Positions 1 through 61,507 of a stretch of 64,000 nucleotides of DNA are shown one piece after another. This DNA is from Paenibacillus fonticola DSM 21315 (GTDB lineage: Bacteria > Bacillota > Bacilli > Paenibacillales > Paenibacillaceae), in assembly GCF_000381905.1 (NCBI RefSeq), contig NZ_KB907246.1:1-64000 (forward strand). Reading direction: 5' to 3'. Each line of letters opens with the position of its first letter. Position 1 is the first letter of the stretch. Position numbers and translations under genes: made by a program. The notes under the pieces are model-generated. The model was not told the DNA's origin, searched no databases, and saw only the letters and a program-made list of their open reading frames with translations.

Positions 1-604
1 CAAGAAAGGCACTTGACAAGCTCACGCCGGAGCACGAGGCCCGGGAGCAAACGAAGGTTCGGGAGAGAATATGCGTGATTCGTTTGCACTAGGTTTGCCA
101 AGAACTGAACGTGCGTTTCTAGCTTGCAAAAGCTCTCCTTGACGAAGACATAACATGTGGTACCCAACCCACGGATAGCAGCGTGCCGACCGTCGCTCGC
201 ATTTTTGCTCTCGTGCCACGTGCTCAGGCAGAAAAAATAGAGGGTTTGACAAAAACGTTCATAGCAACGAATCTCAGCCACGCTATTTGCGGTTTATCCT
301 CTGTTTGGAGCAGTAAAGATTGAAATAACGTTGCCCAGCTTCGTTACATTTTGAGAAGGGTTATTTTTAAACAGATAGCGATTATCAGCTTCGTTATAAA
401 ATTTCGTTCACGTTCTGAGTCACATTTTCGATCTAAGCCCTGGGAAAGGAATCGTCTTGGATGGCAAACAAGAGCAAGAAAGAAATAAACCAGTTTAACT
501 TGTAAGTGAAAGTGACAAATAACACTGAACTTGAACAGATTTGTGGTCAGGCTAGCGTCTTTAGGTGCAGTTTGGCAACAGGGAATTATCCCCCGAAGAG
601 CAAA
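1..604. other. Intergenic region with no convincing gene
   Basis: No reading frame here has a ribosome binding site and a recognisable product. The visible structure is a diverged copy of the dispersed inverted-repeat element at 265-396 and a 14-codon frame beginning MANKSKKE at 461 that stops at 505. That start resembles the first residues of IS200-type TnpA transposases, and the hairpin at 605-623 resembles the end of such an element, so an internally deleted IS200 relic is possible. This is a weak inference. Confidence 0.4.
265..396. repeat. Diverged copy of dispersed inverted-repeat element (locus D)
   Basis: Three units of 21 bp with a 7-7-7 layout lie at 265-285, 326-346 and 376-396. 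The two later units end in TTCGTTA and begin TAACGTT and TAGCGAT. Their spacing of 61 and 50 bp matches the last three units of the better copies at 15396-15578 and 61090-61273. The divergence suggests an old or variant copy. Confidence 0.5.
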
Positions 605-623
605 CCACCCGTTGGACGGGTGG
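605..623 (+). repeat. Perfect hairpin, possible IS200/IS605-type element end
   Basis: CCACCCGT and ACGGGTGG flank a 3-nt loop, giving an 8-bp perfect stem followed by TCATGATT. Hairpins of this type sit at the subterminal ends of IS200/IS605 elements, which have no terminal inverted repeats. No transposase gene remains between here and the MANKSKKE frame at 461. It could also be an unrelated terminator-like hairpin, although it has no T-run. Confidence 0.35.
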
Positions 624-683
624 TCATGATTGATGGCAAAGAAAGAGGATGGAAATCAACAGGGCCAAGCTGTCAGCTGGTTA

Positions 684-15258: not shown

Positions 15259-15328
15259 CACCAAATAGCACCAAATACCACCAAATGTCACCAAATGTTA
15301 CCAAATATCACTAAATGTTACCAAGTGC
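15259..15328 (+). repeat. Seven 10-bp repeats, possibly curved DNA
   Basis: Consensus CACCAAATGT, seven copies at exactly 10-bp intervals. An AAA tract recurs once per helical turn, which predicts intrinsic curvature. Confidence 0.85.
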
Positions 15329-15395
15329 TATTAACTTCCGCCAAACCGCCAACTAATTACTGGTTAATCCCTGACCGAAAAATGCTAAGTAGAGC

Positions 15396-15578
15396 TAGCG
15401 GACCGTAGATCCGCTATTTGGCCAATAATGCGAAAATGATTGCACTAACGGACCCTGGTTCCGCTATTGCGCAGAAAACTAGCCGATTTGGGGCAATTAG
15501 GGCCAGATAGCAGCTTCTGTGTCCGTAAAGCTGCGAATATCACGGAAATCGGCGAAATAGCGGATCGTATGTCCGCTA
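15396..15578 (+). repeat. Dispersed inverted-repeat element (locus A)
   Basis: Four 21-bp units of the form TARCGGA-N7-TCCGYTA lie at 15396, 15446, 15508 (degenerate, TAGCAGC ... TCCGTAA) and 15558. Offsets 0/50/112/162 equal those at 61090-61273. The central 7 bases differ in every unit, while the arms are conserved. Linkers contain TATTTGGCCAA-like sequence, shared with the other copy. Confidence 0.9.
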
Positions 15579-15645
15579 GGATCATCAAAATAGCCATAAT
15601 AAGTTAACTTGAACCATATTCAATGGCCGCTCCTTTCAGTCATCA

Positions 15646-15802
15646 ACCACTGGCATGCACCACTGGCATGCACCACTGGCATGCACCACTGGCATGCACC
15701 ACTGGCATGCATCACTGGCATGCACCACTGGCATGCACCACTGGCATGCACCACTGGCATGCACCACTGGCATGCACCACTGGCATGCACCACTGGCATG
15801 CG
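15646..15802 (+). repeat. 13-bp minisatellite, twelve copies
   Basis: ACCACTGGCATGC repeats at strict 13-bp intervals from 15646, with one substitution (ATCAC) in the fifth spacing and a decayed last copy. Every unit contains the palindrome GCATGC. Since 13 is not a multiple of 3, all three forward frames stay open and encode the same 13-residue repeat; no ribosome binding site supports translation. Confidence 0.95.
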
Positions 15803-16000
15803 CCATTGGCTTCAGGTATAACCGCTCATCGCTACTCCAATCATTGTAGGTTTACGTATGTTACCTATTATACCTAGTATGGGGAATTACCCCATAAATA
15901 TGAAGTGTCCTAGGGTCGAAATTTATTTTACGGTGTCATCCCTTATAAAATGGTTTCTATGATCGCAGGCTGCCTTTTAAGTGCTCGATAGACGTTTTTC

Positions 16001-50391: not shown

Positions 50392-50425
50392 AGACCCGCT
50401 TTAAGCCTCGCTCAAAGCGGGTCTT
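50392..50425 (+). terminator. Rho-independent terminator after glnS
   Basis: AGACCCGCT and AGCGGGTCT with additional TT/AA pairing, then TTTG. Confidence 0.8.
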
Positions 50426-50469
50426 TGCGTTAAGCAGCAGTATATATGTGCGTTGGATTTACGATGAAT

Positions 50470-50490
50470 TAGCGGAATCTGTGTCCGTTA
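50470..50490 (+). repeat. Single unit of the dispersed inverted repeat (locus B)
   Basis: TAGCGGA-ATCTGTG-TCCGTTA, one clean 21-bp unit between glnS and the DUF378 gene. A partial TAGCGAG relic follows at 50527. The rest of 50352-50661 shows no gene. Confidence 0.85.
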
Positions 50491-50661
50491 GCTCATCAGA
50501 AACAACAATAAGGAGGGAATAGCTAATAGCGAGACCTCTTAAATGGATTTACTGAACTTGCAAATTTTTTCAAAAATTGTTTTTAAAAGCTGCCATTTTA
50601 GGAAATAGTATAACGTAACAAGATATAATTTAAATTAGATTTCCCGATAGGAGGATTTAAC

Positions 50662-52244: not shown

Positions 52245-52392
52245 GGCGGGCAGCTCTCCTTCTTGCAAAAAATTTGATCTGAAATGCATTTCATAGTTTA
52301 AAATGAAAATGTACTGGGAAACAACACTTCTGCTTTGGCGTGACCAGATGGGCGTAACGAAGCAAGAAGGTTGTTTTCTTTTTTCTATTTGT

Positions 52393-52423
52393 AAAAAAAT
52401 CCGGCACCTATAGGCGTACCGGA
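52393..52423 (-). terminator. Rho-independent terminator after an MFS gene
   Basis: On the minus strand TCCGGTAC pairs with GTGCCGGA and is followed by seven T residues. Confidence 0.8.
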
Positions 52424-52437
52424 GGACATGCGAATAA

Positions 52438-53646
52438 TTAAGGCTCTTCAGAGCGGGGCAGGGGGGAATACCCAACCTTATAAATACGGTACCACATTGC
52501 AGCAAAGCCTGCTGCCCCAAATAACGTTAGAGTAACGCCGAACCGGTACATGATGACCGCTCCAAAGCTCTGAAACAGCCATCCCCCAAGAAAGCCGGCC
52601 AAGAGGAAGGCGAGACCGCTCAGCGCAAAGGTATATACGGCTTGCCCTGATGAGCGGAAAGGCCGGGGCAGCAGCAGTGCAGTGAGCCGGGTGCCTACAT
52701 AAAAAAATCCGCCGAAGGTTACGGAATGCAGCACTTGGATCATAATGATCTGGAGTGGCGTAAAGGCTTCGGACATCAGCTGCCAGCGCAAGGCGAACAG
52801 AAAGCTGACAATCGTAATGCAAGCCAGTAAATAAGTCATTTTTCGTTTAAGAAAACGATGCAGCAGCGTGAACGCTCCAGCCTCAAATATCGTGGAAAGG
52901 AACACCGCTCCTCCAACTTGCAGCCGGGAGCTGCCAAGATCATTCATGAATAAAGGGAAAAAAATACTGTTAATGGCATTAGGAATTGAGACCATCAAAC
53001 CAAACACGATAAAAGCGATAAAATACTTGCTGTGTAGGACCCGGGCCAATTCCGAGGACTTCATCCAAGGCGTATCCGTCGTTTTCCGGATGGAGGGAAG
53101 GACCAATGTAGTGCCGATCGCCAGCATTAAGGTCAAGCTGAACAGAAGGGAAATGCCGTTATGACCGGCTTGATCAATGACCAGCCCAGAAGCCAATGCG
53201 ATGAAAGCCCAGCCTAAAGAACCCCAAATCCGATAAGTGCTGAATTTCAAGCCGGTTCCCTCAATATAGCCGAGAATAAGACTGTTGCTTTGTGACAACA
53301 GAGGACTTTGAAAAAAATACAGCAATACCATCGTAACATAGAGCGCTGTGTAGGTATTCACTTTAAAAACCATGTGACCTGCGACCAGCAGGCCTGTCAG
53401 CATAATGAGCAGAATAAAGCGAACATTGTGAGTTCGATCACTTAAGTGCCTCCAGAACGGGTGGGCCAACAAAGAAACTAGGGGAGCGATAGCCATCAGG
53501 CTGCCGATCTCAAACTTGTCCATGCCTACGTCCAGCAAATATAATTGGAAGAAGGCTGCGAAGATAACCATAGTTCCATATATGAAAAAATTAAGCAGCC
53601 CTAAGGGCAGTAAAGTATTTGACGGATTTTCAGCATTTTTCCGCAA
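52438..53646 (-). CDS. MFS transporter, sugar/nucleoside symporter-like
   Basis: A 402-residue protein with twelve helices, of the MFS_1-like group related to phenylpropionate (HcaT) and oligosaccharide symporters: LMAIAPLVSLLAHPFWRHLSDR is the loop 2-3 motif, and GYIEGTGLKFSTYRIWGSLGWA is typical. The start is unsure. TTG at 53646 gives 9-nt spacing from AAAGGA; the ATG at 53655 abuts it, and a TTG at 53673 has no site. The LacI gene downstream suggests import of a sugar or nucleoside. Confidence 0.8.
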   Translation of the reverse strand: MRKNAENPSNTLLPLGLLNFFIYGTMVIFAAFFQLYLLDVGMDKFEIGSLMAIAPLVSLLAHPFWRHLSDRTHNVRFILLIMLTGLLVAGHMVFKVNTYTALYVTMVLLYFFQSPLLSQSNSLILGYIEGTGLKFSTYRIWGSLGWAFIALASGLVIDQAGHNGISLLFSLTLMLAIGTTLVLPSIRKTTDTPWMKSSELARVLHSKYFIAFIVFGLMVSIPNAINSIFFPLFMNDLGSSRLQVGGAVFLSTIFEAGAFTLLHRFLKRKMTYLLACITIVSFLFALRWQLMSEAFTPLQIIMIQVLHSVTFGGFFYVGTRLTALLLPRPFRSSGQAVYTFALSGLAFLLAGFLGGWLFQSFGAVIMYRFGVTLTLFGAAGFAAMWYRIYKVGYSPLPRSEEP

Positions 53647-60856: not shown

Positions 60857-60920
60857 GTTGTCCGGCACAGCGCAGCTGTGGCTGATTTATTTTTTGGGTG
60901 CAGCCTTGGGTATGCAGGCA

Positions 60921-61070
60921 GAATGCGGTAGTGCCAATGCGGGCCGAATGTAGTAGTGCCAGTGCAGGCAGAATGCGGTAGTGCCAATGCGGGCCGAATG
61001 TAGTAGTGCCAGTGCAGGCCGAATGCAGTAGTGCCAGTGCAGGCAGAATGCAGCATGGGCAGGTACAGGC
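60921..61070 (+). repeat. 25-bp tandem repeat with 50-bp higher-order unit
   Basis: Five full copies start at 60921, 60946, 60971, 60996 and 61021 and a decayed sixth at 61046. Two variants (GAATGCGGTAGTGCCAATGC and GAATGTAGTAGTGCCAGTGC) alternate, so the array expanded in 50-bp steps. Confidence 0.92.
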
Positions 61071-61089
61071 ATGTTCGCCGGGCGGGCTC

Positions 61090-61273
61090 TAACGGACCTC
61101 AGATCCGCTATTTAGCCAAAAGTGCTGAGAAACTGTAGCTAACGGACACAGCAGCCCTTATTTGGCCAATTTCGAGGGGAAATAGGCTGATTTGTACCGA
61201 ATAGCGGAACCACGGTCCGTTAGGTTATCGAAATGGTCTTAATGCCGTGCAATAGCGGACCTCCTGTCCGTTG
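61090..61273 (+). repeat. Dispersed inverted-repeat element (locus C)
   Basis: Four 21-bp units at 61090, 61140 (degenerate, ends GCCCTTA), 61202 and 61253. Offsets 0/50/112/163 and the TATTTAGCCAAA/TATTTGGCCAA linkers match locus A in the same orientation, so the two loci share a common ancestor. Confidence 0.9.
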
Positions 61274-61507
61274 GCCCAACTGGCTTATACCATATCATGT
61301 AATCACAATCCACACTTTCCTCGGAGCGGCGCGTAATGGCAGCCGAACTAATGTGCGCATATTGCTCTATTGCTCTATCTATTCCATCGGGCTAGCTGAT
61401 CGAACTAGCCTCACTCTAACCCTCGTTCTAGTCCTCGCTCTCTAATCCCATCCTCATCGTCGTCCCATCCTCATCGTCCATCCAATCTTCCGATCCAATC
61501 TCCCGGT

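Follow-up and report, generated by a model that had tools for sequence, protein, structure and literature searches.

The locus at positions 15394..15580 of contig NZ_KB907246.1 of Paenibacillus fonticola DSM 21315 carries short palindromic units at regular offsets, and raises the question of what kind of element this is and how its copies came to be dispersed. A preliminary description made from the sequence alone considered a binding array for a dimeric or nucleoid protein, a folded RNA, or a mobile repeat spread by a transposase. In this work, we characterized the element by genome-wide pattern and covariance searches, comparisons with relatives, and the analysis of genes encoded beside its copies. 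The best reading of these results is a repeat-enzyme pair that would work like the REPIN-RAYT systems, with an unrelated enzyme.

The four-unit element and its copies in the window

The window, i.e., the whole stretch of DNA analyzed here, comprises 64,000 nucleotides and corresponds to C2:1-64000 of the 6.3 Mb host genome (G000). Allowing up to 2 mismatches, the unit pattern was matched 8 times in the window versus 0.55 times expected from dinucleotide shuffles, which bears out the four-unit repeat first noticed at the 15396 and 61090 loci. The elements located in the window are:

15394..15580, unstranded: full four-unit family A element (pattern search; covariance model R1, 159.8 bits; nhmmer), with units at 15396-15416, 15446-15466, 15508-15528 (degenerate) and 15558-15578
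61088..61275, unstranded: full four-unit family A element (R1, 146.5 bits), with units at 61090-61110, 61140-61160 (two mismatches), 61202-61222 and 61253-61273
50406..50534, unstranded: decayed family A element (weak R1 match, E 0.005)
about 265-396 (266..396), unstranded: family B element with TAACGAATC arms and units 2-4, without unit 1

The degenerate unit of the first element, at 15508, reads TAGCAGCTTCTGTGTCCGTAA, and the 61088..61275 element has an ortholog at 74-76% identity in the relatives G022, G063, G004 and G011. Position 50470, which had been described as one single unit, marks the best-kept unit (unit 3, 50470-50490) of a relic of a four-unit element, and its orthologous place holds a full element in the same relatives (P. 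ihumii and three others). Likewise, the stretch at 265-396, formerly taken for a diverged third copy, belongs to a separate second family, which in an alignment of 17 copies displays the same four-unit layout at the same spacing as family A. This stretch has about 30 matches in four relatives, and together with its junction it is 93% identical over 392 bp to an element of the host located downstream of the second paralogue gene described below (G000:C56). Minisatellite-like direct repeats were also observed around both full family A copies (window 15260-15330, 15670-15880 and 60900-61060).

Each element spans about 187 bp and consists of four directed units of about 25 bp, arranged ->-> <-<- and starting at 0/50/112/162. 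The last two units repeat the first two in reverse complement, making the element a dyad of directed sites. The alignment of 217 elements yielded a unit consensus common to all four units, C-TAACGGAC-[AC][CT]N[AG]G[AT]-[GT]CCG[CT]TATTT, in which the centre positions are constrained, a correction to the freely varying centres of the earlier description. Conservation ends sharply at the outer tips CTAACGG/CCGTTAG. Using a position matrix at a threshold of 12, we found 114 unit matches in 1.12 Mb of G022 versus 6 in shuffled sequence, and strong units beyond the called elements numbered 6 in that stretch, so the units live as fours and not singly. In P. daejeonensis (L202, 7333-7640), at least 6 single units, all with the same orientation, follow one another every 50-51 bp and have no inverted partners; this is a different array made from the same kind of unit.

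Abundance and genomic distribution

The genome-wide search proposed in the preliminary description was carried out, and gave 57 exact pattern matches in the whole host genome versus 1 for a reversed-pattern control. With both strands of eight elements used to build a covariance model, the search produced 104 hits on the two strands, corresponding to about 52 elements, and a host subfamily comprises about 30 elements, most of them 80-89% identical to one copy. Among 395 genomes of the order, the two-unit signature TAACGGA-N42..44-TAACGGA occurred in 220, reaching a maximum of 286 per genome (both strands counted), with the reversed-pattern control near zero. Random spacing or chance frequency is therefore rejected by the shuffles, the reversed controls and the few units outside elements. 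The same-genus relatives appear to include Paenibacillus woosongensis, P. ihumii, P. oralis and P. faecis. Full-length profile matches were also present in Bacillaceae (Alkalihalobacillus, Rossellomorea, Salibacterium and Gracilibacillus). A BLAST search with one young copy returned no match indicating plasmid or phage carriage, and pattern matches in IMG/VR resembled the chance background.

The claim that the copies are intergenic was confirmed in 1.12 Mb of the close relative G022, in which 26 of 26 called elements were intergenic and none of the 26 lay between a divergent gene pair. The elements listed for G022 and G063 seem less dense toward the middle of the replicon coordinates (~2.0-4.1 Mb of G022).

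Covariation among the units

If the element acted as a folded RNA, or as a long hairpin of single-stranded DNA, unit 1 would pair with unit 4 and unit 2 with unit 3, and such pairs should co-vary most. The dyad does fold well, and RNAalifold chose the 1:4 stem. However, at matching positions the covariation in the direct pairs 1:2 and 3:4 was as strong as in the pairable units, and for the centres it was strongest between those direct units. Moreover, unit position 7 co-varied alike in all four units (MI 0.49-0.58), and in the host genome the complementarity of the 1:4 centres fell below that of shuffles (z -2.9). The search against Rfam 15 gave no match at gathering score in the window, and the element loci had chance-level hits only (E<=1). 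Read from the alignments, the covariation pattern is that of four copies of one putative recognition site. The covariation and the within-genome shuffles speak against selection on an RNA or a long hairpin, and we consider the folded element of the preliminary description very improbable.

A candidate partner protein

Clustering of the open reading frames located beside elements at 101 loci produced one top cluster, with members from 8 different genomes, which corresponds to a protein of about 215 aa. Besides weak helix-turn-helix hits at the C-terminus, the proteins scanned had no meaningful match in Pfam, NCBIfam or PHROG, and none that exceeded the curated cut-offs of Pfam and NCBIfam. The protein was present in 296 of the 395 genomes of the order; it was found in all 147 genomes with at least 3 signatures, and each of the 99 genomes without it had at most 2, a chance-like level (Fisher 1.3e-24, uncorrected for phylogeny). 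Among 398 genomes sampled from the phylum, matches at E<=1e-20 were restricted to five genomes of the host's family and one distant genome.

The protein gene is also a neighbor of the elements. A four-unit element lay closely downstream of the stop codon in 62 of 85 protein genes, and on either side in 67, versus 5 of 150 random genes with an element in a comparable downstream window. The remaining 23 genes had no clear downstream element at the threshold used, and 5 of these had an upstream one. At the held-out loci introduced below, the median gap between gene and element was 92 bp. The host carries two paralogues (C19 and C56), each adjoining its own element type:

52286-52930 (C19), minus strand: gene of the C19 paralogue, ~160 bp from the element C19:51939-52125, which has the exact pattern in all four units

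The TAACGAA element downstream of the C56 paralogue gene was seen by eye, being under the automatic threshold; the pairing of gene and element in family B is clear in G063 and G004. A more diverged paralogue was observed in the host at G000 C2:145875-146408, and other genomes have similar matches at E 1e-30, several in some of them.

A structure model of the full protein (pLDDT 87) predicted an alpha/beta domain and a C-terminal winged helix, with winged-helix matches of Z 10-11 for residues 148-215. When the N-terminal domain was modelled on its own (pLDDT 89), its best match was the catalytic domain of I-Bth0305I (Z 11.3, 97 residues, rmsd 2.9), followed by the putative endonuclease-like protein NGO0050 (Z 10.1). 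Residues E59, D71, E84 and H91 were invariant in 85 proteins, and D94 was present in 84 of them. As modelled, the N-terminal domain resembles VSR/EDxHD endonucleases. The EDxHD homing endonucleases have I-Bth0305I as their type member, and this enzyme has been reported to dimerize on a target of nearly 60 bp (PMC3943268). The gene of the ~215-aa protein was seen in neither an intron nor an intein context.

Residue-base specificity

In 38 gene-element pairs, CGG arms went with R at residue 184 of the recognition helix, and CGA arms with Q. At residue 185, H or Q accompanied arms that have C as base 7, and Y accompanied arms that have A there. The corresponding prediction was recorded before 40 further loci were fetched. 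Q184 accompanied A at base 5 in 5/5 versus 0/30 training cases and in 5/6 versus 0/24 held-out cases (p=4e-5), and Y185 accompanied A at base 7 in 8/8 versus 0/21 and in 4/5 versus 1/20 cases, respectively (p=0.002), the held-out loci being drawn from the same search list and hence not phylogenetically independent of the training loci. A scan of all columns of the protein alignment ranked residue 184 first for predicting base 5 and residue 185 first for base 7, and the tree requires three changes of each arm label. Both host paralogues follow the code: C19 has R184/H185 beside a TAACGGAC element (CGGAC), and C56 has Q184/H185 beside a TAACGAA element (CGAA). Exceptions were found at L613 (P184), L630 (Y185 with C) and L637 (H185 with A), and mixed arms at L164 and L596; GGTTG or CGC arms lie beyond the two-letter code. 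Elements with CGGTTG and CGCTTG arms were observed beside paralogues at L589, L593 and L595, whose residues 184/185 are H/R, Q/H and N/R; these are further specificity classes, which might extend the code.

Contacts between R and G and between Q and A are classical in the major groove, and direct reading of the arm by the recognition helix is for this reason the natural explanation. Binding of the protein to the units is strongly supported at the sequence level, and the binding array for a dimeric protein suggested in the preliminary description has gained good support from the cognate protein, its adjacency to elements, their co-occurrence and the held-out two-residue code.

Evolution of the elements

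In 16 ungapped orthologous pairs of elements, substitutions per site amounted to 0.043 in arms, 0.083 in centres and 0.146 in linkers (p=7e-19). The linker rate exceeded the arm rate in 15 of the 16 pairs, and arms evolved about 3 times slower. Together with a 50/62/50 spacing maintained throughout the order, the slower evolution of arms than of linkers upholds the selection on spacing that had been proposed.

Nearly all elements examined in ~1.1 Mb of G022 and G063 were orthologous, the differences consisting of tandem copy number (3 to 1, 2 to 1 and 1 to 2). Tandem arrays were also observed at L448, L164 and L177 and at G022 C1:964878-965564 and 1671419-1672134, with periods of about 192, 250, 264 and 410-440 bp, and their copy number varies between close relatives.

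The comparison of presence and absence between close strains, which the preliminary description had recommended, was carried out with four relatives. The 61088 element is orthologous in four relatives; the 15394 element is missing in four, along with several hundred bp of the surrounding low-complexity sequence, the intergenic region around it being ~0.9 kb longer in the host. Intergenic DNA next to the 61088 and 50457 loci was often unalignable in relatives, and no clean empty site was found in G022, G063, G004 or G011. Furthermore, 217 mostly old copies showed no significant flanking duplication of a target site. Neither a parent transposon with the same ends nor half-elements flanking a transposase were found in 1.12 Mb of one genome, and no such parent was found in the 8-kb loci. 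Most present copies are old and vertically inherited, as far as the sequences suggest, and the conservation of arms suggests that copies are kept; both features would be compatible alike with a protein that still engages the copies and with copies that benefit the host. Of the mobile repeat proposed earlier, amplification within genomes and a gene flanked by elements speak in favor, and the lack of a clean empty site or target-site duplication and the mostly vertical inheritance speak against.

Origin and maintenance of the elements

We consider it probable that each element arrays four directed sites to which the ~215-aa protein binds, and that the protein gene plus its adjoining element or elements constitutes the source unit, with spread by cutting and copying. 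According to this mechanism, the protein would bind the four units, residue 184 reading arm base 5 and residue 185 base 7, and would dimerize on each unit. The dispersed intergenic elements would be non-autonomous partners of the protein gene. The unit-bound protein would cut or nick DNA at the element, and repair would place copies of the element at new intergenic positions, in the manner proposed for RAYTs and REPINs (PMC8049555); elements may then be kept through continued binding or host benefit. The sequence evidence supports the element, its geometry, the constraint on arms, the adjacency to the gene, the co-occurrence, the residue-base coupling and the predicted fold; physical binding, dimerization on each unit, cleavage, mobility and a host role are what we infer. 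Counted against this explanation are the lack of a clean empty site or target-site duplication, the sharing of elements between G022 and G063, the 23 of 85 genes without a clear downstream element, and the exceptions to the code. Moreover, the co-occurrence statistics are uncorrected for phylogeny, elements are also present in Bacillaceae, and in the phylum sample the matches to the protein at E<=1e-20 came from the host's family and one distant genome.

A less likely origin, to which we nonetheless assign an appreciable minority share, is a domesticated chromosomal binding array: the protein would be a sequence-specific architectural or regulatory factor, whose nuclease domain may have lost its activity or may serve in repair. 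The elements would be its functional sites, maintained by selection, and any spread would lie in the past. Slow evolution of arms at fixed orthologous positions, vertical inheritance, and strictly intergenic sites that avoid divergent promoters all agree with such an array. It accounts poorly, however, for copy numbers that range from chance level to nearly 300 signatures within one order, for families homogenized within genomes, for a protein gene itself flanked by elements, and for the invariance of catalytic-type residues. An ordinary REP/REPIN spread by a RAYT (Y1 HUH), or a MITE of an insertion sequence, would likewise produce dispersed intergenic palindromic repeats with amplified subfamilies, and the terminal inverted repeats that define MITEs are present, units 1 and 4 being inverted at the two ends. 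Yet Y1_Tnp (PF01797) is absent in many element-rich genomes (G063, G004, G011, G021, G012, G130, G152, G185 and G187) and present in element-free genomes (G008, G017 and G033); target-site duplications were not detected, nor did half-elements flank a transposase in 1.12 Mb. A RAYT/HUH enzyme is ruled out by this co-occurrence, in which PF01797 does not track the elements, and we regard an origin of this kind as the least credible of all, below even the folded RNA.

Relation to known systems

The RAYTs, to which REPINs are linked, are domesticated transposases present in single copy and inherited vertically (PMC8049555). The system described here shares with REPIN-RAYT (PMC3116915, PMC8049555, PMC3733652) high-copy intergenic palindromic repeats of long persistence, a low-copy gene that is maintained by vertical descent and adjoins copies of its own repeat (here in 62/85 cases downstream), and repeat classes matched to enzyme classes. 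It differs in the enzyme, an EDxHD/VSR-like domain with a winged helix instead of an HUH/Y1 protein, and in the layout, with four directed sites at 50/62/50 in contrast to the one or two hairpins of REPIN-RAYT. It also lacks the REP tag found at the foot of the palindrome, neither GTAG nor CGTC being part of the unit consensus CTAACGGAC...CCGYTATTT, and its specificity would be read by the recognition helix of the winged helix.

The EDxHD homing endonucleases (I-Bth0305I, PMC3943268) resemble the protein in the N-terminal fold and in the conserved E, D, H and D (E59, D71, H91 and D94), which are putative active-site residues. In contrast to I-Bth0305I, the protein is tied to a dispersed family of elements and not to one intron target, and has a C-terminal winged helix; its cleavage activity is putative. 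Short intergenic inverted repeats in tens to hundreds of copies are also typical of the bcr1 MITEs of B. cereus and of stem-loop families, which include Bhal-1, of 74 bp (PMC2267715). Unlike bacterial MITEs, the present elements form a four-site array with a non-transposase cognate protein, and an insertion-sequence parent and target-site duplication were not found. TnsA of Tn7 has a comparable architecture, a restriction-endonuclease-like domain followed by a winged helix, with a fold match (Z 6.6) weaker than that of the EDxHD domain.

The system is not a RAYT (the enzyme is of the wrong type and the tag is lacking), nor demonstrably a MITE, nor an Rfam RNA, and its protein has no curated family. 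Enzyme, element and recognition mode all differ; on a more cautious view, the system could be a variation on the known repeat-plus-enzyme kind. We lean, by a modest degree, toward a new class in which an EDxHD-type nuclease fused to a winged helix spreads and maintains four-site arrays by means of a residue-to-base code, with several co-resident specificity classes per genome, and which evolved independently of RAYT/REPIN. No description of this repeat-enzyme system was found in the open literature; subscription papers were beyond the scope of the search, and an earlier description is possible. It would represent an apparently overlooked repeat system that spans a bacterial order, numbers tens to hundreds of copies in each genome and has a candidate partner protein. 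If true, it would also be a second and unrelated route to a lifestyle like that of REPIN-RAYT, so that the reasons for the long persistence of such enzymes and repeats could be tested by comparing the two. The specificity switches that occur naturally (R/Q at 184 and H/Y at 185) provide an experimental handle, and the protein is perhaps a programmable site-specific DNA-binding nuclease.

Possible insertion sequences at the elements

Several loci may bear traces of insertion sequences. In one family A element of the host (G000 C1:334716-336193, L276), units 2 and 3 are separated by ~1.3 kb of sequence that is probably an insertion sequence. Window positions 475-634 match three places in G022, each located ~70 bp downstream of a Y1 (IS200-like) transposase gene, and this stretch is probably the remnant end of an IS200-like insertion sequence. 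Window positions 1-265 are nearly identical to a stretch of C56 (L579 1-600), and on the two contigs this stretch meets two different B elements at an identical base of the unit; by eye, the B elements joined on C2 and C56 are alike to about 88%. REPs are known targets of some insertion sequences, and the stretch shared by C2 and C56 may be the end of an insertion sequence targeting the family B unit, or a duplication.
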